Shown here in pieces: positions 2,665-12,156 of a stretch of 12,156 nucleotides of DNA. Below the pieces are notes generated by a model that made no database searches, was not told where the DNA came from, and worked only from the letters and a program-made list of their open reading frames with translations. Every line of letters begins with the position of its first letter. The stretch's first letter is position 1. A program made the translations under genes and the position numbers. Source of the DNA: Rhodoferax sp. (GTDB taxonomy: Bacteria > Pseudomonadota > Gammaproteobacteria > Burkholderiales > Burkholderiaceae); assembly GCA_028292075.1 (NCBI GenBank), contig JAQGNA010000488.1, forward strand, positions 1 through 12,156. The letters run 5' to 3'.

Positions 2665-4107
2665 TCAGGCGCCGACGTAGGCCGTCTTCACCGTGGTGAA
2701 GAATTCCTGCGCGTAGCGGCCCTGTTCGCGCGAGCCGAAGCTCGAGCCCTTGCGTCCGCCGAACGGCACGTGGTAGTCAACGCCCGCGGTCGGCAGGTTG
2801 ACCATGACCATGCCGGCCTGGCTGTGGCGCTTGAAGTGCGCGGCGTACTTGAGGCTGGTGGTCGCGATGCCGGCGGACAGGCCGAACGGCGTGTTGTTCG
2901 ATTCGAACAGCGCTTCTTCGTAACCCTTCACGCGGATGACGCTAGCCACCGGGCCGAACACTTCCTCGCGGTTGATCCGCATCTCGGCGGTGGTGTCGGT
3001 CAGCAGCGCGGGCATCATGTAGTAGCCGTCGGTGGACAGCTTCAAGCGGTCGCCGCCGGCAACCAGCGTGGCGCCTTCCTTTTGGCCGATGGCCACATAG
3101 TCCATGTCCTGCTCGAGCTGCGACTGCGAGGACACCGGTCCGATGTCGATGCCTGCGGCCAGGGCGTCGCCCACCTTCAGCGTGGCCATGCGGGCCTTGA
3201 CGGCCTCGACGAACTGGCTGTAGATGCCGTCGGTGACGATCAGCCGGCTCGATGCCGTGCAGCGCTGGCCGGTCGAGAAGAACGCGCTCTGCACGCTGAG
3301 TTCAACGGCCTGCTTCAGGTCGGCGTCGTCCAGGATGATCTGCGGGTTTTTGCCGCCCATTTCGAGCTGCACCTTCTTCAGGTTGACGGCGCACTGCTGG
3401 GCAATGCGGGCGCCCACACCCTGTGAGCCGGTGAAGCTGATGGCGTCGATGCCGGGGTGGTTGACCAGCGGGTCGCCAATGACGGAGCCGCGGCCCATCA
3501 CCAGGTTGAACACGCCGGCGGGGATGCCGCTGCGGCTGATGATGTCGGCCAGCGCCCATGCGCAGCCCGGCACCAGGTCGGCGGGCTTCAGCACCACGCA
3601 ATTGCCGTAGGCCAGGGCCGGCGCGATCTTCCACGAAGGAATGGCGATGGGGAAGTTCCACGGTGTGATCAGGCCGATGACGCCGACGGGTTCGCGGGTG
3701 ATTTCAACCACGACGCCGGAACGCACCGAAGGCACCACTTCGCCGGTCAGGCGCAGGCATTCGCCGGCGAAGAACTTGAAGATGTTGCCGGCGCGGGTGA
3801 CTTCGCCGATGCCTTCAGGCTTGGTCTTGCCTTCTTCGCGGGCCAGCAGGGTGCCGAGCTCTTCGCGGCGCGCCAAGATTTCGGTGCCGATCTTGTCGAG
3901 CGCGTCATGGCGGGCCTGGATGTTGCCGGTGGACCAGGCGGGGAAAGCCGCACGTGCGGCAGCCACGGCGGCGTCGAGTTGGGCGGCATCGGCCTGGGTG
4001 TAGTCGCCGATGATGTCGGCCAGGTTGGACGGATTGACGTTGGGCGCGTACTTGGCGCCGGCAACCCATTCGCCGTTGATCAGGTTGTCGAATTTCTGGG
4101 TGGTCAT
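2665..4107 (-). CDS. 2-oxoglutarate (alpha-ketoglutarate) semialdehyde dehydrogenase, aldehyde dehydrogenase family
   Basis: A 480-residue NAD(P)-dependent aldehyde dehydrogenase. Catalytic features are all present: Asn151 in TPWNFP, cofactor-binding Lys174 in VVLKPA, FTGSQGVG (225-232), general base Glu249 in LEMGGKNP, and nucleophile Cys283 in FSTGQRCTASSR. The C terminus VPFGGRKGSSFGSREQGRY and length fit the semialdehyde dehydrogenase group. Sequence alone would leave the substrate open (succinate or glutarate semialdehyde are alternatives). Its place directly downstream of kdgD, whose product is 2-oxoglutarate semialdehyde, makes oxidation to 2-oxoglutarate by far the likeliest job. The ATG at 4107 follows an AGGA-type site. 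The 169-bp gap to kdgD contains a strong hairpin (4208-4239). It is the last gene of the minus-strand operon and ends at the bidirectional terminator near 2540. Confidence 0.9.
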   Translation of the reverse strand: MTTQKFDNLINGEWVAGAKYAPNVNPSNLADIIGDYTQADAAQLDAAVAAARAAFPAWSTGNIQARHDALDKIGTEILARREELGTLLAREEGKTKPEGIGEVTRAGNIFKFFAGECLRLTGEVVPSVRSGVVVEITREPVGVIGLITPWNFPIAIPSWKIAPALAYGNCVVLKPADLVPGCAWALADIISRSGIPAGVFNLVMGRGSVIGDPLVNHPGIDAISFTGSQGVGARIAQQCAVNLKKVQLEMGGKNPQIILDDADLKQAVELSVQSAFFSTGQRCTASSRLIVTDGIYSQFVEAVKARMATLKVGDALAAGIDIGPVSSQSQLEQDMDYVAIGQKEGATLVAGGDRLKLSTDGYYMMPALLTDTTAEMRINREEVFGPVASVIRVKGYEEALFESNNTPFGLSAGIATTSLKYAAHFKRHSQAGMVMVNLPTAGVDYHVPFGGRKGSSFGSREQGRYAQEFFTTVKTAYVGA

Positions 4108-4276: not shown

Positions 4277-5188
4277 TTACTGTGCGCCGAGCTTCTTGAT
4301 GAGTACGGCCAGTTCTTCCATCTCCGAAGGCTTGAGGTCGGTCAGGGGCGCGCGAACCGGGCCGCCGTCATGGCCGACGATCTTGGCACCGGCCTTGATG
4401 ATACTCACACCATAACCTTCGACGCGGTTGCGGATCGACAGGTAGGGCATGAAGAACTCCTTCAGCAGCTTGTGCTGGGTCGGCAGGTCGTCGGCGGCCA
4501 CGGCCTTGTAGAAGTCCATTGCCGTCTTCGGGATGAAGTTGAACACCGCCGACGAATACACCGGCGTGCCCAGCGCCTTGTAGGCCGCTGCATAGACTTC
4601 GGCGGTGGGCAGGCCACCCAGGTAGGCGAAGCGGTCGCCCATCTTCATGAAGATGGAGGACATGGTCTCGATGTTGCCAACGCCGTCCTTGAAACCCACC
4701 AGGTTCGGGCAGCGCTCGGCAAGGATCGCCAGCGAATTCGGCGTGAGCTTGGTGCGGTCGCGGTTGTACACGATGACGCCGAACTTCACGCTGTTGCAGA
4801 CCTGGGCCACATGCTCGATCAGGCCTTCCTGGCCGGCTTCGGTCAGGTAGTGCGGCAGCAGCAGTACGCCTTGGGCTCCCAGGCGCTCGGCTTCCTGGGC
4901 GTGGGCGATGGCGGTGCGGGTCGGGCCGCCGGCGCCGGCGATGATCGGCACCTTGCCGCGGCAGGTTTCCACAGCCGTCTTGATGACGCGGCTGTATTCC
5001 TCGCCGGCCAGCGAGAAGTATTCGCCCGTGCCGCCCGCGGCGAACAGCGCGCTCGCGCCGTACGGCGCCAGCCATTCCAGGCGCTCGATGTAGCTCTTGG
5101 GGCGGAACTCGCCCTGCTCGTCGAAGTCGGTGATCGGGAAGGACAGCAGGCCGGAGCCCATGATGGTTTTGAGTTCTTGTGGATTCAT
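4277..5188 (-). CDS. kdgD: 5-dehydro-4-deoxyglucarate dehydratase (KdgD)
   Basis: A 303-residue member of the DHDPS/NAL class I aldolase-like family. KdgD decarboxylates and dehydrates 5-keto-4-deoxyglucarate to 2-oxoglutarate semialdehyde. Visible motifs are [11 protein letters not shown] (carboxylate-binding GGTGE at 52-56), Tyr141 in [11 protein letters not shown], and the Schiff-base Lys167 in [11 protein letters not shown] chose the ATG at 5188 ([23 protein letters not shown]) rather than an in-frame ATG 123 bases upstream, because it gives the normal family length and N terminus and has AGGA before it. The asparagine-arginine after Tyr141 and the FKDGVGN loop fit KdgD better than dihydrodipicolinate synthase. 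Neighbours are a Bug protein upstream and the dehydrogenase for its product downstream. Confidence 0.95.
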
Positions 5189-5268
5189 GATTTTTTTCCT
5201 GGAGGTTGGTGGGGTGGGTGGCATCACCGTGGCTCGGTGCGGCGACGGGGCGTCAGGCCCGCATGCGC

Positions 5269-6243
5269 TCAGTCGAGCTTGATGTTCGCCTGGTTCACGA
5301 CCTGCGCCCATCGCGCGCGTTCGCGGTTAAAAAATTGGTCCTGCTCGGTGGCCAGCATCGTGACGACCTCGGCGCCCTGCCCGGTCAGGCGGGAGCGGAT
5401 GTCGGCACTGCGGATGATCTTGATCAGCTCGGCGTTCAGGCGGGTGATGATGGCCGGCGCGGTGCCGTTGGCCACCAGCACGCCCTGCCAGGTGCCCGAC
5501 TCGAAATCGGTCAGGCCCTGCTCGGCGAACGTGGGCACGTCGCCCACCAGCGGCATGCGGGTCTTCTTGGAGATGGCCAGCACCTTGAGCTTGCCGCTTT
5601 GCACATGCGGCAGCGTGGCCAGCATGCCATTCATGAGCACCTGGGTCTGGCCGCCCATCGTGTCCTGGATCGCCTGCACGCCACCCTTGTAGGGCACGTA
5701 GACCCACTTGGCGCCACTGGCCCGCTCCACGGCCACGCCGGCCAGGTGCGGCGCGCTGCCCATGGCGGTCACCGCGAAGTTCAGGTCGGTGGTCTTCGAC
5801 AGCGCGACCAGTTCCTTGAACGTGTTGGCCTTGACCGAAGGGTGCACCACCAGCATGTGCGGCGAATACGCCAGCATGGTCACGCCGCGCAGGTCCTTGC
5901 TCGGGTCGAACGGCAGCTTGGTGTAGACCGAGGGGCTGATGGCCAGCGCACCGACGTCGCACAGCAGCAGCGTATGGCCGTCAGGTGCCGACTTGGCAAC
6001 GAAGTCGGCGCCCAGGTTGCCGTTGGCACCGGCGCGGTTTTCCACCAGCACCGTCTGCTTCAGCGCTTCGGCCAGGGGCTGGCTGATGGCGCGGGCGATG
6101 ATGTCCGACGAACCGCCCGGCGGGTACGGCACGATGAGCTTGATGGGCTTGCTCGGCCAGGCCTGGGCGAAGGCGGCCGGCGCTGCCGCGGCAGCGGACG
6201 CAGCGACGGCAGACGTGATGAGTTGACGGCGATTCAGCGACAT
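5269..6243 (-). CDS. Bug/TctC-family periplasmic solute-binding protein
   Basis: A 324-residue tripartite-tricarboxylate-transporter type binding protein. The N terminus [16 protein letters not shown] with an alanine-rich hydrophobic stretch ending AFAQA (about residue 27) is an export signal; the paired arginines suggest a Tat signal but the motif is imperfect. Bug hallmarks are [45 protein letters not shown] and VPYKGG. No TctA/TctB membrane genes are in the window, which is common for the many orphan Bug genes of Comamonadaceae. A good AGGAG site precedes the ATG. It sits inside the uronate operon exactly where an aldarate dehydratase might be expected, so an acidic sugar such as galactarate or glucarate is a reasonable ligand guess. 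The ligand cannot be read from sequence. Confidence 0.92.
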
Positions 6244-6369: not shown

Positions 6370-7275
6370 TCAGCCAGGAAAGCGCGAGAACACCGGCTCG
6401 GGCAGGCCTCGCACGCCAGGATCGAGCGCGAACACGGCGCCATTCAGGCCCGGCTGCTCAGCCGACACGGTGCCCGGCAGGATCGAGGTGACATACAGCA
6501 CATCGAGGTTGGCACCGCCGAAGGCGCACATGGCGGGCTTGGCCACCGGCACTTCAAGCGATTTCACCAGTCGGCCCTGGGGGTCGAAGCGGTGCACCTT
6601 GCCGGCATCGTTGCCACAACTCCAGTAATGGCCTTCGGCGTCCACCGCCGCGCCGTCGGGCCGGCCGGGCAGATTGGTCATGTCGATGAATTCGCGGGGC
6701 TCGCCAAAGGTGGCGGTGGCGGCATCGAAGTCAAAAGCCCAGACGCGTTGCACCGTGGGGTGCGAATCGGACAGGTAGGCCGTGCGCCCGTCCGGGCTGA
6801 AGCCCAGGCCGTTGGGCGTGATCATGTCCTGCACCTTGGCTGCGCTCAGACCGTGTTCGTCCAGGCAATACAGCGCGCCCAGCGGGGATGCGGCGGCCAT
6901 GTCCATGACCATGGTGGTGATCCAGAACCGGCCCTGCGCATCGCAGCGCCCGTCGTTGAAACGCATGCCCGCGGCTGGGTGGTCGATCCTGGCCAAACAG
7001 CGCAGCGCCACGTCACCCGAGGGTTGCAGCGTCACGGCGTAGACCCCGGTTTCCATGGCGGCAATGATTTCGTCGCCCTCTGGCTTCGCACTCAGCGCGA
7101 TGCACCCGACCCGCTCCGGCAAACGCCAGCTTTGGAGAACGTCGGTTGCCGGGTCCCATCGGCGGACCAGCCGGCCCTCGATGTCGACCCAAAAAAGCGC
7201 CTGGCCGCGCACATCCCACACCGGAGACTCTCCAACGCGGTCACGGCTGCTGCCGATTGGGGGCGCGACGATCAT
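6370..7275 (-). CDS. SMP-30/gluconolactonase-family aldarolactone hydrolase
   Basis: A 301-residue six-bladed beta-propeller lactonase. Metal-binding residues of the family are seen as Glu16 (VGESPVWD), Asn155 (ITPNGLGFSPDG) and Asp207 (GRPDGAAVDAEG). RFNDGRCDAQGRFW (105-118) is the usual substrate-side loop, with Asn107. The ATG at 7275 overlaps the udh stop as ATGA, implying translational coupling. The product of Udh is an aldarolactone, so hydrolysis of galactaro- or glucarolactone to the open aldarate is the likely reaction. Sequence alone would equally allow gluconolactone or arabinolactone. Such lactonases in hexuronate operons have been called UxuL, but I do not assign that symbol. A 126-base gap separates it from the Bug gene. 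Confidence 0.92.
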   Translation of the reverse strand: MIVAPPIGSSRDRVGESPVWDVRGQALFWVDIEGRLVRRWDPATDVLQSWRLPERVGCIALSAKPEGDEIIAAMETGVYAVTLQPSGDVALRCLARIDHPAAGMRFNDGRCDAQGRFWITTMVMDMAAASPLGALYCLDEHGLSAAKVQDMITPNGLGFSPDGRTAYLSDSHPTVQRVWAFDFDAATATFGEPREFIDMTNLPGRPDGAAVDAEGHYWSCGNDAGKVHRFDPQGRLVKSLEVPVAKPAMCAFGGANLDVLYVTSILPGTVSAEQPGLNGAVFALDPGVRGLPEPVFSRFPG

Positions 7276-8081
7276 GACTCGTAAGGCCCTTGCACAACGA
7301 AACCGCCGCCATGGCTGGTATGGGCCGGATTCTTCAGGTCAGGTGCCGTGGTCGCCGCATAGATCTCTTCACGGAACTGGTCTGAACTGTCTTGCGGCAC
7401 GTAGCCCACATGCCTTGCACCGCTGTTGTCCCACCATGTCACCGCGTTGTTCGACATGCCGAAAATGATGCTGTGCTTCAAAACGGGCGTGGTCAGGCAC
7501 GCGGTGATCAGGCGGTGCAGATCGCCGTAGCTGAGCCAGGTGGCCAGCATGCGCCGGTCGACCGGCTTGGGGAACGACGAGCCGATGCGCACGCAGGCCG
7601 TCTCGATGCCATAGCGTTCGAAGTAGAACTTCGACAGGTCTTCCCCGAAAGCCTTGCTGACACCATAGAAGCTGTCAGGCCGGGGCGGCGCGTCGACGCC
7701 GATCGTCTCGCCCTGGCTGTAGTAGCCGACCACGTGGTTCGAACTGGCGAACACGATGCGCTTCACGCCGTGCTTGCGCGCCGCTTCATAAAGATGGAAG
7801 AGCCCAAGAATGTTCGCCTGGACGATCGGCAGATAAGGGCCGTCGACCGAAACGCCGCCCAGATGCACGATGGCATCGACACCCTGCACCATGGCGTCGA
7901 CCGCGGCAGCGTCGGCCAGGTCGGCCAGAACGATTTCCTCGTTCGCTTGCGCGGCCCCGAACTCCGCGCGATCGGACAACCGCAACGTGGTGCAGTTCTG
8001 CTTCAGGCTTTCGCGCAGCACCTTGCCAAGACCGCCGGCCGCACCGGTCAGCAAAATCTTTTCATGCAATTTGATGGTCAT
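7272..8081 (-). CDS. udh: Uronate dehydrogenase (NAD-dependent, extended SDR family)
   Basis: A 269-residue NAD-dependent oxidoreductase. It oxidises C1 of D-galacturonate or D-glucuronate to the aldarolactone, the entry step of the oxidative uronate pathway. Visible features are the Rossmann loop TGAAGGLGK (12-20), IVHLGG (71-76), the active-site serines in FASSNHVVGYY (111-121), and the Tyr139-x3-Lys143 pair in FYGVSKAFGEDL. WWDNS (216-220) is typical of Agrobacterium-type Udh. I chose MTIKLHEK at 8081 instead of the in-frame ATG at 8150: it gives the family's normal length (about 265), and the upstream start would lie close to the predicted transcription start. Its stop overlaps the lactonase start by four bases. 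It is the first gene of its operon and diverges from the TRAP transporter. Confidence 0.95.
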   Translation of the reverse strand: MTIKLHEKILLTGAAGGLGKVLRESLKQNCTTLRLSDRAEFGAAQANEEIVLADLADAAAVDAMVQGVDAIVHLGGVSVDGPYLPIVQANILGLFHLYEAARKHGVKRIVFASSNHVVGYYSQGETIGVDAPPRPDSFYGVSKAFGEDLSKFYFERYGIETACVRIGSSFPKPVDRRMLATWLSYGDLHRLITACLTTPVLKHSIIFGMSNNAVTWWDNSGARHVGYVPQDSSDQFREEIYAATTAPDLKNPAHTSHGGGFVVQGPYES

Positions 8082-8158
8082 TTTTCTTCTCTGAGGGTGG
8101 GACGTGAGGCAAGAAAGGACCGCACTCTCAATGCAGTCCTGAATCGCCACAGGTCATA

Positions 8159-8173
8159 AGTTGTCTGATGACT
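8159..8173. promoter_or_regulatory. Operator 1 (udh promoter), FadR/GntR-like
   Basis: AGTTGTCTGATGACT is an inverted repeat with half-sites AGTTGT and AGTCAT around a 3-bp centre. It lies about four bases downstream of the predicted udh -10, covering the likely transcription start, which suits a repressor. The same halves in the same order occur at 8370-8384. Confidence 0.75.
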
Positions 8174-8176
8174 GGA

Positions 8177-8205
8177 ATTCTCGAAATATTGCCCCCGACT
8201 GTCAA
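8177..8205 (-). promoter_or_regulatory. Predicted sigma-70 promoter of the udh operon
   Basis: On the minus strand a consensus TTGACA (8205-8200) is followed after exactly 17 bases by GAGAAT (8182-8177), a 4/6 match to the -10. The predicted start falls in operator 1, leaving a leader of about 90 bases before the udh ATG. Confidence 0.6.
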
Positions 8206-8224
8206 GCAGTTTCTGGCAGATCTA

Positions 8225-8235
8225 GGGCAAACCCT
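8225..8235. promoter_or_regulatory. GGGCAAACCCT motif within a CTAGGG/CCCTAG inverted repeat
   Basis: CTAGGG (8222-8227), CAAA, CCCTAG (8232-8237) is a perfect 6-bp inverted repeat 16 to 19 bases upstream of the udh -35, an activator-like position. Its core recurs with one change as GGGTAAACCCT at 8340-8350. The binding protein is unknown. Confidence 0.45.
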
Positions 8236-8339
8236 AGGCACCACCTCCCATTCAGGCCCGTTGTGTAAACGATCGCCTGCCACTGGGGCGGTCACCAGGG
8301 AAGCCGCGCTGGGCCCTCTTAACCGACGTGACAGCATTG

Positions 8340-8350
8340 GGGTAAACCCT
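8340..8350. promoter_or_regulatory. GGGTAAACCCT motif upstream of the dctP promoter
   Basis: A second copy of the GGGYAAACCCT motif, directly abutting the proposed dctP -35 (8351-8356). It is in the same orientation as the copy at 8225-8235, 115 bp away. Confidence 0.4.
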
Positions 8351-8380
8351 TTGAAATACTTGAACGATCAGTTGTAGGAT
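8351..8380 (+). promoter_or_regulatory. Predicted sigma-70 promoter of the TRAP operon
   Basis: TTGAAA (8351-8356) and TAGGAT (8375-8380) are separated by 18 bases, a moderate match; TTGAAC at 8360-8365 with GATAAA at 8385-8390 (19-base spacer) is an alternative. Either way operator 2 overlaps the promoter. The leader to dctP would be about 140 bases. Confidence 0.45.
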
Positions 8381-8384
8381 GACT
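8370..8384. promoter_or_regulatory. Operator 2 (dctP promoter), FadR/GntR-like
   Basis: AGTTGTAGGATGACT has the same half-sites as operator 1 (AGTTGT and AGTCAT). Its symmetry continues outward as ATC and GAT, so 8367-8387 is the most symmetric of the three sites. It overlaps the predicted dctP -10 region, a repressor position. Confidence 0.78.
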
Positions 8385-8419: not shown

Positions 8420-9512
<1,093 letters not shown>

Positions 9513-9596: not shown

Positions 9597-9617
9597 TCAC
9601 GGCGAGAAGCAACCACC

Positions 9618-10100
9618 ATGGATCTTTACAATTCAATCAACGCGCAGCTGTCGAACTGGGTGCTCCGTATTGCGAGCGTCTGTCTGGCCGCTCTGGGCAT
9701 CGTGGTCATCTACGGCGTCATCATGCGTTACGCCTTCAACGATGCCCCACCCTACGTGGAGCAGGTGGCCCTGCTGCTGGTGATCTCGGTCGCCATGTTC
9801 GGTGCCGCCGCGGGCGTCCATGACGCCGGGCATATCGGCCTCGACTCCGTCGTCAAGCTGTTGCCGGAGAAGGTGCAGTTCCTGTGCCTGATCCTGGTGG
9901 AGGTGTTCACGATCCTGTTCGCGGCGGTGCTGCTGTATGGCTGCGAGCACATGGCTGCCTCGACCCGCCACGACACCATACCGACGCTGGGCATCTCGGA
10001 AGCCTGGCGCTACGTACCGCCCATGATCGCGGGCGTTCTCATCATCCTCTTCTCAGTCAAGCACATGCTCACACTGTTCACGAAGAAAACGACTGCCTGA
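9618..10100 (+). CDS. dctQ: TRAP transporter small membrane subunit (DctQ family)
   Basis: A 160-residue inner-membrane protein with four predicted hydrophobic helices: about residues 16-37 (RIASVCLAALGIVVIYGVIM), 48-68 (EQVALLLVISVAMFGAAAG), 85-107 (VQFLCLILVEVFTILFAAVL) and 131-151 (YVPPMIAGVLIILFSVKH). MRYAFNDAPPYVEQ after helix 1 is the usual DctQ signature. I chose MDLYNSIN at 9618 over an ATG 30 bases upstream because GAGAAG (9604-9609) precedes it at good spacing and the upstream start lies inside the stem-loop. It bridges DctP docking and the DctM channel. One base separates its stop from the dctM start, so the two are translationally coupled. Confidence 0.94.
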   Translation: MDLYNSINAQLSNWVLRIASVCLAALGIVVIYGVIMRYAFNDAPPYVEQVALLLVISVAMFGAAAGVHDAGHIGLDSVVKLLPEKVQFLCLILVEVFTILFAAVLLYGCEHMAASTRHDTIPTLGISEAWRYVPPMIAGVLIILFSVKHMLTLFTKKTTA

Positions 10101-10101
10101 C

Positions 10102-11454
10102 ATGGAACTCGCCGTACTTTCCCTGAGCTTCGTGCTCTTCCTCGCGCTGGGCGTGCCGGTGGCTTTTGCCATCGGCCTGAGTTGCCTGGCCACCTTCGCC
10201 GTCGAAGGCCTGCCACTCGCCACCGCCATGCAGATGATGGTGTCGGGCATGAACGTGTTTTCGTTCCTCGCGATCCCGTTCTTCATCTTCTCGGGCGAGC
10301 TGATGCTGCACGGAGGCATTGCCGACAAGATCCTCGACTTCGCGCGCAGCATGGTCGGCCACATGAAGGGCGGCCTCGGCCTGGCCAACGTGATGGCCAG
10401 CACCCTGTTCGGCGGCGTTTCGGGTTCACCCATTGCCGACACCTCGGCCATGGGCGGCGTCATGATCCCGATCATGAAGCGGGAAGGCTACAGCGCGGAC
10501 TACGCGGTGAACGTCACCACGCATGCCTCGCTCACCGGCGCGCTGATGCCGACCTCGCACAACATGATCATCTACGCCTTCGCGGCGCAGGCGGCGGCGG
10601 GCACCATCGACGGCCACATCATCCGTGGCGTGTCGATCGGCGACCTCATGTTCGCCGGCTTGATTCCGGTTTTCTGGATCATGGTCTGCATGCTGATCGC
10701 GGCCTATTGGCAGGCGGTGCGCAACGGCTTTCCGAAGCGCGCGGACGGCTCCTCGATGCTCGAACGCTTCCCCGGCTGGAAGGCCGTTCTGACGACCTTC
10801 ATCGCGGCCATTCCCGGCCTGATGGTGATCGTCGTGATCCTGGGCTGCGTGATGGGCGGCGTGACCACAGCCACCGAGGCCGCGGCCATCGCGGTGGCGT
10901 ATTCGCTGTTCCTCACGGCGGTGATCTACCGCACCATGAACAAGGAAAAGCTGATCAAGTCGCTGAAGAAGGCCTCGAAGACGACCGGCGTGATCCTGCT
11001 GCTGATCGGCGTGTCGAACATGCTGCGCTGGCAGATGGCCTACCTGGAAATTCCCGAAGCGATCGAAGGCGCGCTGCTGCACGCCACGCAGACGCCATGG
11101 CTGATGCTGCTGTACATCAACATCATCCAGATTTTCCTGGGCATCTTCCTGGACATGGCGGCCCACATCCTGATCACGACGCCGCTGTTCCTGCCACTGG
11201 CCATGCAGATGGGCGTCGGCCCGGTGCAGTTCGGCATGATGCTGCTCCTCAACTGCGCGCTCGGTCTCGTGCACCCACCAGTGGGGACCGTTCAGTTTGT
11301 CGGGTGTGCCATCGGCAATATATCGATCGGCGAGGCGACGAAGACCGCCTGGCCGTACTATTTGGCGATATGGATTGCAATCAACCTGGTGACCTATGTG
11401 CCGTCGTTCTCGACCTGGCTGCCATCGGTGATTACCGGCCATCCGGTGTTCTGA
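10102..11454 (+). CDS. dctM: TRAP transporter large membrane subunit (DctM family)
   Basis: A 450-residue polytopic inner-membrane protein, the sodium-driven transport subunit of the TRAP system. It is mostly hydrophobic with about a dozen helices. DctM hallmarks are VPVAFAIGLS near the N terminus, FSFLAIPFFIFSGELMLHGGIADKI (51-75), GGLGLANVMASTLFGGVSGSPIADTSAMGGVMIP, and NCALGLVHPPVGTVQFVGCAIGNISI in the second half, which are the re-entrant loop regions. It is some 20 residues longer than the typical 425-430. Its start is one base after the dctQ stop. Transcription should end at the hairpin at 11504-11536. Confidence 0.96.
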   Translation: MELAVLSLSFVLFLALGVPVAFAIGLSCLATFAVEGLPLATAMQMMVSGMNVFSFLAIPFFIFSGELMLHGGIADKILDFARSMVGHMKGGLGLANVMASTLFGGVSGSPIADTSAMGGVMIPIMKREGYSADYAVNVTTHASLTGALMPTSHNMIIYAFAAQAAAGTIDGHIIRGVSIGDLMFAGLIPVFWIMVCMLIAAYWQAVRNGFPKRADGSSMLERFPGWKAVLTTFIAAIPGLMVIVVILGCVMGGVTTATEAAAIAVAYSLFLTAVIYRTMNKEKLIKSLKKASKTTGVILLLIGVSNMLRWQMAYLEIPEAIEGALLHATQTPWLMLLYINIIQIFLGIFLDMAAHILITTPLFLPLAMQMGVGPVQFGMMLLLNCALGLVHPPVGTVQFVGCAIGNISIGEATKTAWPYYLAIWIAINLVTYVPSFSTWLPSVITGHPVF

Positions 11455-11536: not shown

Positions 11537-11646
11537 CACGCCCGCGCAACCCCACGAAGCACTCGCCGCACTGGTAGTTTCCCCTCTTGATCAGGCGCGA
11601 TTGAAGCTGGACTTTTGCGCAATGTTTGCTAAAGTTAGTGGCCTCG

Positions 11647-11677
11647 TTGACACGTCAGTCATACGTTGTCCTATAAC
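11647..11677 (+). promoter_or_regulatory. Predicted promoter of the FadR-type regulator
   Basis: A consensus TTGACA (11647-11652) is followed after 19 bases by TATAAC (11672-11677), a good -10 with a slightly long spacer. The predicted start is about 28 bases before the ATG at 11712. The -10 is embedded in operator 3. Confidence 0.6.
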
Positions 11678-11678
11678 T
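11664..11678. promoter_or_regulatory. Operator 3 (autoregulation of the FadR-type gene)
   Basis: CGTTGTCCTATAACT is an inverted repeat of the AGTYRT-N3-AYRACT class with one half-site deviation at its first base. An extra half-site AGTCAT lies just upstream at 11657-11662. It contains the promoter's -10, so binding would block transcription. It is weaker than operators 1 and 2. Confidence 0.6.
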
Positions 11679-11711: not shown

Positions 11712-12156
11712 ATGGAATCTACATCCGCTCCTGCGCCGGCGACGCTCATGCAGCCGACAAAACCCGGGACGGATGCAAGCCCCAATGCCCGCCTCAGGCG
11801 ACCGCGCGGTCTGGTCTCGGAAATCGTTGAGAACCTCGCCGCCGACATCCGCCAGGGGCAGTTGAAGGAAGGCGACAAGTTGCCCACGGAGGCCGAGATC
11901 ATGGCCCGCTTCGATGTCAGCCGCACCGTGGTGCGCGAGGCGCTTTCGAAGCTGCAGGCGTCCGGCCTGGTCGAAACCCGGCATGGCATCGGCACCTTCG
12001 TGATCGCGCCGCCTGAAGCCGGCAACTTCAAGATCGCCGCCGAAGATTTAGCCACCGTGGCCGACGTGATCGCGTTGCACGAGCTGCGCATCAGACTCGT
12101 GACAGAGGCAGCAGGACTGGCCGCCCAGCGCCGCACCGCGGCCAATCTGGCCCAAC
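11712..12156 (+). CDS. FadR-subfamily GntR transcriptional regulator, 5' part only
   Basis: I translated 148 residues in an open frame that runs off the right edge. After a roughly 30-residue polar, proline-rich leader comes a GntR winged helix (residues 33-98). It includes the start of helix 1 (GLVSEIVENLAADIRQGQL), the LPTEAEIMARFDVSRTVVREAL helix-turn-helix (58-78), and the wing GLVETRHGIGTFV (85-97). LHELRIRLVTEAAGLAA (122-138) begins the all-helical FCD ligand domain that defines the FadR subfamily. The remaining ~100 residues are outside the window. The ATG at 11712 has no clear ribosome site; codon 13 (11748) is an alternative start. It is probably the repressor acting at the three matching operators, including its own, with a uronate-pathway intermediate as inducer. 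The inducer and the operator link are inference. Confidence 0.92.
   Translation, partial: MESTSAPAPATLMQPTKPGTDASPNARLRRPRGLVSEIVENLAADIRQGQLKEGDKLPTEAEIMARFDVSRTVVREALSKLQASGLVETRHGIGTFVIAPPEAGNFKIAAEDLATVADVIALHELRIRLVTEAAGLAAQRRTAANLAQ

Follow-up and report, generated by a model that had tools for sequence, protein, structure and literature searches.

Three predicted operators of a GguR-like GntR regulator at a uronate gene cluster of Rhodoferax

The uronate gene cluster and its nearest relatives

The window, by which we mean the whole 12,156-nucleotide stretch of Rhodoferax sp. DNA that was analyzed, carries a uronate gene cluster that consists of a minus-strand udh operon and a divergent plus-strand array of the transporter genes dctP, dctQ and dctM together with a gene for a GntR-type regulator. 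On the minus strand, udh (7275..8081) encodes a uronate dehydrogenase whose top matches in the PDB are enzymes of this kind (E 3.4e-87). It is accompanied by genes for an SMP-30/gluconolactonase-like protein (6373..7275), a TctC-type binding protein (5272..6243), 5-dehydro-4-deoxyglucarate dehydratase (kdgD, 4280..5242, above the cut-off of TIGR03249; the coordinates are those of the frame scanned and the start is putative) and an aldehyde dehydrogenase (2668..4107) that is probably an alpha-ketoglutaric semialdehyde dehydrogenase, this being its best match, at a score below the cut-off (519/770 bits). On the plus strand, dctP (8526..9509) encodes a TRAP binding protein and is followed by dctQ (9615..10097, likewise the frame scanned, with a putative start) and dctM (10102..11451); the gene neighbors suggest that the substrate of this transporter is a uronate. 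The regulator gene (gntR, 11712..12156, plus strand) is cut by the end of the window. Its product has a GntR winged-helix domain at the N-terminus (PF00392, 82.9 bits, with the match beginning at residue 35), and an FCD domain is present in both of the orthologues that were scanned (L113 and L002), the window copy being cut before it.

The nearest relatives that we found are a Rhodoferax MAG (genome G001, locus L001) and the genome G167, in which the uronate locus is L113. Their dctP genes are 96% and 95% identical to the window copy, respectively, and their udh genes 91% and 95%.

Operator sites and their conservation

An initial annotation of the window had described two near-identical sites, 211 bp apart, and had proposed them as operators for the regulator encoded at 11712. 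A pattern match bears out the pair: AGTTGTN3ATGACT occurs without mismatches only twice in the window, as operator 1 on the udh side (AGTTGTCTGATGACT, centre CTG, 8159..8173) and as operator 2 on the dctP side (AGTTGTAGGATGACT, centre AGG, 8370..8384). Overlooked at that stage were a further site upstream of gntR, operator 3 (CGTTGTCCTATAACT, 11664..11678), which is likely the autoregulatory site of this gene, and the extra half-sites that stand beside operators 1 and 3. When the intergenic DNA of the window was aligned with that of L001 and L113, 136 of the 471 columns were identical in all three species, and the most conserved 15-column stretches proved to be those of operator 2 (15/15) and operator 1 (14/15).

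The same motif emerged de novo from relatives. Intergenic regions between gntR and udh were collected from loci up to L120 in which both genes were at least 50% identical to those of the window and separated by a gap of less than 700 bp; the 43 regions were reduced to 34 unique ones by removal of identical or contained sequences, and these, with the window excluded, served as the training set for a palindrome-constrained EM search with 500 sampled seeds. Each of the 15 best seeds led to the same palindrome, aGTTGTCWGACAACt, which matches the window sites. The motif is thus conserved before orthologous operons, and the initial annotation, which was to be given up if no such conservation existed, stands on this point.

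Scored with the resulting PWM, the window sites rank in the order 8159 (20.8 bits), 11664 (15.5 bits) and 8370 (15.3 bits), after which the scores fall to 6.0 bits. A simulated 12-kb window contains on average 0.025 sites that reach 14 bits; the maximum score in 200 simulations averaged 7.7 bits, with a single highest value of 17.8 that exceeds the score of operator 2 alone. Across 71 loci plus the window, we counted 12 exact and 36 one-mismatch sites (two and one of them, respectively, in the window) versus 0.2 and 7.6 expected as the mean of five simulations. The paired sites are not the product of chance.

At positions 3-1187 the window also contains a divergent pair formed by kduI and a small cupin gene. 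The PWM scan found no operator site of at least 10 bits in this region, and the kduI/cupin route therefore seems to lie outside the regulon; a partial match of 9.4 bits occurs at 862, within the cupin gene.

Promoters

A promoter scan placed a udh promoter, TTGACA-N17-GAGAAT, at 8177..8205 on the minus strand and a dctP promoter, TTGAAA-N18-TAGGAT, at 8351..8380 on the plus strand, these being the two consensus promoters found between the operons versus a mean of 0.2 in shuffled sequences. Judged by eye, hexamers that correspond to the udh promoter exist in L001 and L113, and the dctP -10 hexamer is identical in both of these loci, its -35 partner being poor in L113. Operator 2 covers the dctP -10 hexamer, and operator 1 would coincide with the udh start if transcription begins ~7 bases after the -10 hexamer. 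Both intergenic operators overlap promoters, one for each of the divergent operons, as the initial annotation had proposed.

A possible gntR promoter, TGGACT-N16-TAAAGT (11608..11635, plus strand), was recognized by eye through comparison with L113, L002 and L058; the promoter scan returned none for gntR in this region. Another candidate for the same role, TTGACA-N18-CTATAA, is absent from the scan and by eye is not kept in L113, L002 and L058; it was dropped because the combination of TGGACW-N16 and a -10-like hexamer seems to be kept in all three.

Arrangement of the operators around gntR

Among the best 30 udh loci, taken from the 379 genomes with a match out of the 399 searched, 26 have a gntR orthologue adjoining udh in divergent orientation. 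The common layout in relatives runs from udh through operator 1, gntR and operator 2 to another operon, for example that of the transporter or of kdgD. In the 24 of the 34 regions that have a second site of at least 11 bits, the two operators are separated by 785-935 bp with gntR in between; the other 10 gave no such site, some of them because the sequence retrieved stopped short. The operators stand together with no intervening gntR in the window (211 bp apart), in L001 of G001 (209 bp) and in G167 (206 bp). In two of these three, the window and G167, the regulator gene follows dctM. Operator 3 of the window keeps the extra half-site that characterizes the gntR|udh site of the relatives. We infer that gntR, which lies between the operators in most of the relatives seen, was relocated with its own promoter to a position behind dctM, an event that would have left its two flanking operators together as the 211-bp pair.

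By eye, the counterpart of operator 3 in G167 looks decayed. The same genome has a one-mismatch operator (L113:6648-6662) and a AGGGTTTTCCCT box behind gntR and before a short-chain dehydrogenase-like gene, in a layout that to the eye resembles that of dctP.

Composite and simple operators

The extra half-site of operator 1, GGTCAT (8152..8157, plus strand), agrees with AGTYRT in five of six letters and ends one base before the operator, and that of operator 3, AGTCAT (11657..11662, plus strand), agrees in all six. In the relatives, 30 of the 34 sites of the operator 1 type have an additional AYRACT (at least five of six letters) one base beyond the palindrome, versus a mean of 0.6 and at most 5 of 34 at control offsets.

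The two types also have different centres. Sites of the operator 1 type carry CWG in 28 of 34 cases, ACG in five and CGG in one, although the EM motif model includes the centre, so that its choice of sites leans to CWG. All 24 accepted sites of the operator 2 type have A-B-G, in a scan behind gntR that ignored the centre and accepted sites of at least 11 bits. The initial annotation had treated the three central bases as the only difference between the two sites; the sites themselves stand, but the centre turns out to be specific to the class of operator. Centre type and extra half-site can part from each other, as is evident from operator 3, which has the composite flank together with a centre of the AGG type, and from the five sites of the operator 1 type with an ACG centre. 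By eye, the regulator N-termini gave no sign that the third half-site goes with a longer or shorter N-terminal extension, the start codons being uncertain and the rows for L100, L107, L109 and the window running far upstream of the likely start.

A second conserved palindrome

A second palindrome, AGGGCAAACCCT (8224..8235), is located at approximately -60 of the expected udh start, and a copy of it, GGGGTAAACCCT with the core GGGTAAACCC (8339..8350), at approximately -42 of the expected dctP start. The stretch with AGGGCAAACCCT follows next after the operators in the three-species alignment, with 13 of 15 columns identical. The core GGGYWAACCC occurs at both promoters, L001 and L113 retain it, and L002, L091 and L092 have a similar box upstream of dctP. 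A longer form, AGGGYWAACCCT, is rare in the six genomes searched for it (1-5 matches per strand, control 0-1), and two of its four places in G167 are in the udh/dctP intergenic region. Genome neighbors and a limited literature search yielded no candidate for a protein that might act on this palindrome.

Sites elsewhere in the genomes of relatives

Exact matches to the motif number 0-3 per genome and 11 in total in the eight genomes searched, whereas a reversed control pattern has 3-16 per genome; the motif is thus rare and not enriched genome-wide. Five of the 11 places are in uronate clusters (L073, L077, L078, L079 and L080), one precedes a galactarate dehydratase gene (L076), two are flanked by a dehydrogenase gene and a TRAP gene (L074 and L082), one is situated before a porin gene near a GntR paralogue (L075) and two are inside genes (L072 and L081). 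The four exact places in G167 are at dctP, at a galactarate dehydratase gene (L159), at the junction of a D-erythronate dehydrogenase and a TRAP gene (L158) and within a gene (L160). According to the gene-finding script, the sites of L074 and L158 fall within a long frame; in our reading they lie upstream of the probable start codon. With one mismatch allowed, the 26-51 matches per genome (control 127-253) are too many to be informative.

The galactarate dehydratase gene, garD (TIGR03248), was sought in 30 relatives and found above the cut-off in 27, in 10 of which it is unlinked to udh. An exact match to the motif precedes the unlinked genes, confirmed by the family model, in G001 and G167. 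At a cut-off of 10 bits, which was set first and is reached by 3.6% of control chunks, 3 of the 10 unlinked garD genes have an upstream site, versus none of the 17 linked ones. In the genus group, this search covered six of the eight genomes (all but G003 and G403), and all six have an unlinked garD with a site of 8.7-16.5 bits, where the lower cut-off of 8.7 bits was chosen after the scores were seen; among simulated 420-bp stretches, 2.4% reach 8.7 bits and 1.2% reach 10. Upstream of the other four unlinked garD genes there is nothing above 3.1 bits.

Likeness to known regulators

The palindrome GTTGT-CWG-ACAAC conforms to the description of FadR-subfamily operators in the main text of PMC4494728, namely TKGT and ACMA boxes in which GT and AC are separated by 3 nt. 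That text also describes double sites in divergons of this subfamily and additional, weaker half-sites at a distance of 7-12 nt from the centre, so that both of these features of the window are already on record for FadR-type regulators. The likeness extends to placement, with each intergenic site close to one of the two operons, but the pair in the window, unlike those divergons, can be followed back to a gntR that lies between the sites in relatives. The main text of PMC4494728 names ExuR and UxuR but contains no word beginning with "glucarate" or "uronate".

A counterpart in function might be GguR of Halomonas, which parts of PMC5507952 present as a GntR-family protein that controls galactarate/glucarate and hexuronate genes; in strain HL-93 its regulon takes in udh and aldarate genes as well as UxuPQM, a TRAP transporter for hexuronates. 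The sites found here point to a similar set of genes, since they occur at udh, at dctP (whose transporter probably takes up a uronate) and, in relatives, before garD, where 6 of the 10 unlinked genes have one at 8.7 bits or more. A wider study of GguR reportedly appeared in J Bacteriol in 2019. We draw the likeness from protein family and regulon genes, and the window departs from the Halomonas system, as far as those parts of PMC5507952 describe it, in that its regulator gene has apparently moved away from udh.

NanR of E. coli, according to parts of PMC8012715, binds a (GGTATA)3 operator as three dimers by means of an N-terminal extension of 32 residues. The window regulator resembles it as a GntR-type protein, putatively a repressor, with an N-terminal extension and with operators of more than two half-sites. 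The window operators, however, are palindromes of another sequence with one further half-site rather than GGTATA repeats. On the 148 residues of the cut window copy that could be scanned, the NanR family model gives 65 bits versus a cut-off of 260.

Proposed regulation of the uronate genes

It is very probable, in our judgment, that operators 1, 2 and 3 are the sites of a GguR-like repressor of the GntR/FadR type (FCD) encoded from 11712, which would shut each promoter through that promoter's own site until it is released by a metabolite of the pathway. This reading builds on the sites that were computed, their conservation, their gene neighborhood and the similar site that some relatives have upstream of garD. 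A dimer of the regulator would read AGTYRT-N3-AYRACT and would cover the udh start point on operator 1, the dctP -10 hexamer on operator 2 and the leader of its own gene on operator 3, from which positions it follows that each promoter might be closed independently; the releasing metabolite is probably an aldarate or a uronate. Such an arrangement would provide a precise set of operators for uronate use in Rhodoferax-like bacteria, including a likely autoregulatory site, and suggests how the relocation of a regulator gene can leave an operator pair behind. It would be a well-made but ordinary bacterial switch that leaves the general understanding of such regulation unchanged.

The spacing of the paired sites had led the initial annotation to suggest that both lie on the same face of the helix and that the repressor might loop the DNA between them. 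In its fullest form, this would mean that a repressor tetramer bridges both operators across 211 bp and silences the two promoters as one unit, which we regard as improbable. At 10.5 bp per turn, the distance corresponds to 20.1 turns in the window and to 19.9 turns in L001, and none of the three genomes seen with the paired layout has lost either operator. The 206 bp of G167 amount to 19.6 turns, about half a turn off the value for 211 bp, so that the range of 206-211 bp does not support phased looping; the commoner layout places the operators 785-935 bp apart with gntR in between, and the spacer of the paired layout is unconserved over much of its length. Taken together, the 24 long spacings give phase p values of 0.01-0.07 that vary with the helical period, but several values repeat among relatives, and for the 19 unique spacings that remain the phase is not significant (p 0.05-0.21), with the value for the best period (periods 9-13) reached by 110 of 300 random sets. 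The proposed same-face placement is thus not upheld by the spacings, and independent action of a repressor at each operator is the reading that we retain.

Conservation and gene neighborhood favor the regulator encoded at 11712 as the probable owner of the motif, in line with the initial prediction, but the motif alone does not name its protein because GntR paralogues and like sites exist elsewhere. The paralogues in L075 and L119 are 45% and 42% identical and by eye have a similar recognition helix, and near-identical sites occur at other loci of the relatives, as might be expected if the sites were bound mainly by another GntR/FCD protein, for example a regulator for erythronate or a similar acid. 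We give this little credence, since the gntR|udh junctions of 34 relatives, with the orthologue adjacent, yielded the motif de novo and since the window has a site before the gntR at 11712 itself. Slighter still is the prospect that the regulator activates the udh and dctP promoters, either exclusively or in addition to repressing them. Sequence does not reveal the mode of action with certainty, but a protein bound at operator 2 on the -10 hexamer or at operator 1 at the expected start would block the polymerase, and the positions that are typical of activators, as estimated from the expected starts, are occupied by the separate palindrome.

As an extension of the repressor reading, we offer, quite tentatively, the idea that the regulator recognizes both a composite CWG kind of operator at udh and gntR and a simple A-B-G kind behind gntR, before the transporter genes or kdgD. 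An extra dimer might load cooperatively on the composite sites in the manner of NanR, the enzyme, transporter and regulator genes might switch at different levels of inducer, and an activator on GGGYWAACCC might act along with the repressor.

Loci with a dehydrogenase and a TRAP transporter

Exact sites lie between dehydrogenase and TRAP binding protein genes in three genomes, at ~1887 in L158, ~1501 in L074 and ~454 in L082, and the dehydrogenase of L158 is of the D-erythronate type according to its family model. No GntR paralogue was found in the 9.5 kb of G167 covered at this locus; in G007, the paralogue of L119 adjoins the dehydrogenase/TRAP locus. The site in L075 (AGTCGTCTGACGACT, 750-764) precedes a porin gene and stands beside the paralogue with 45% identity, and a nearby fragment resembles, by eye, an enzyme of the mandelate racemase family.
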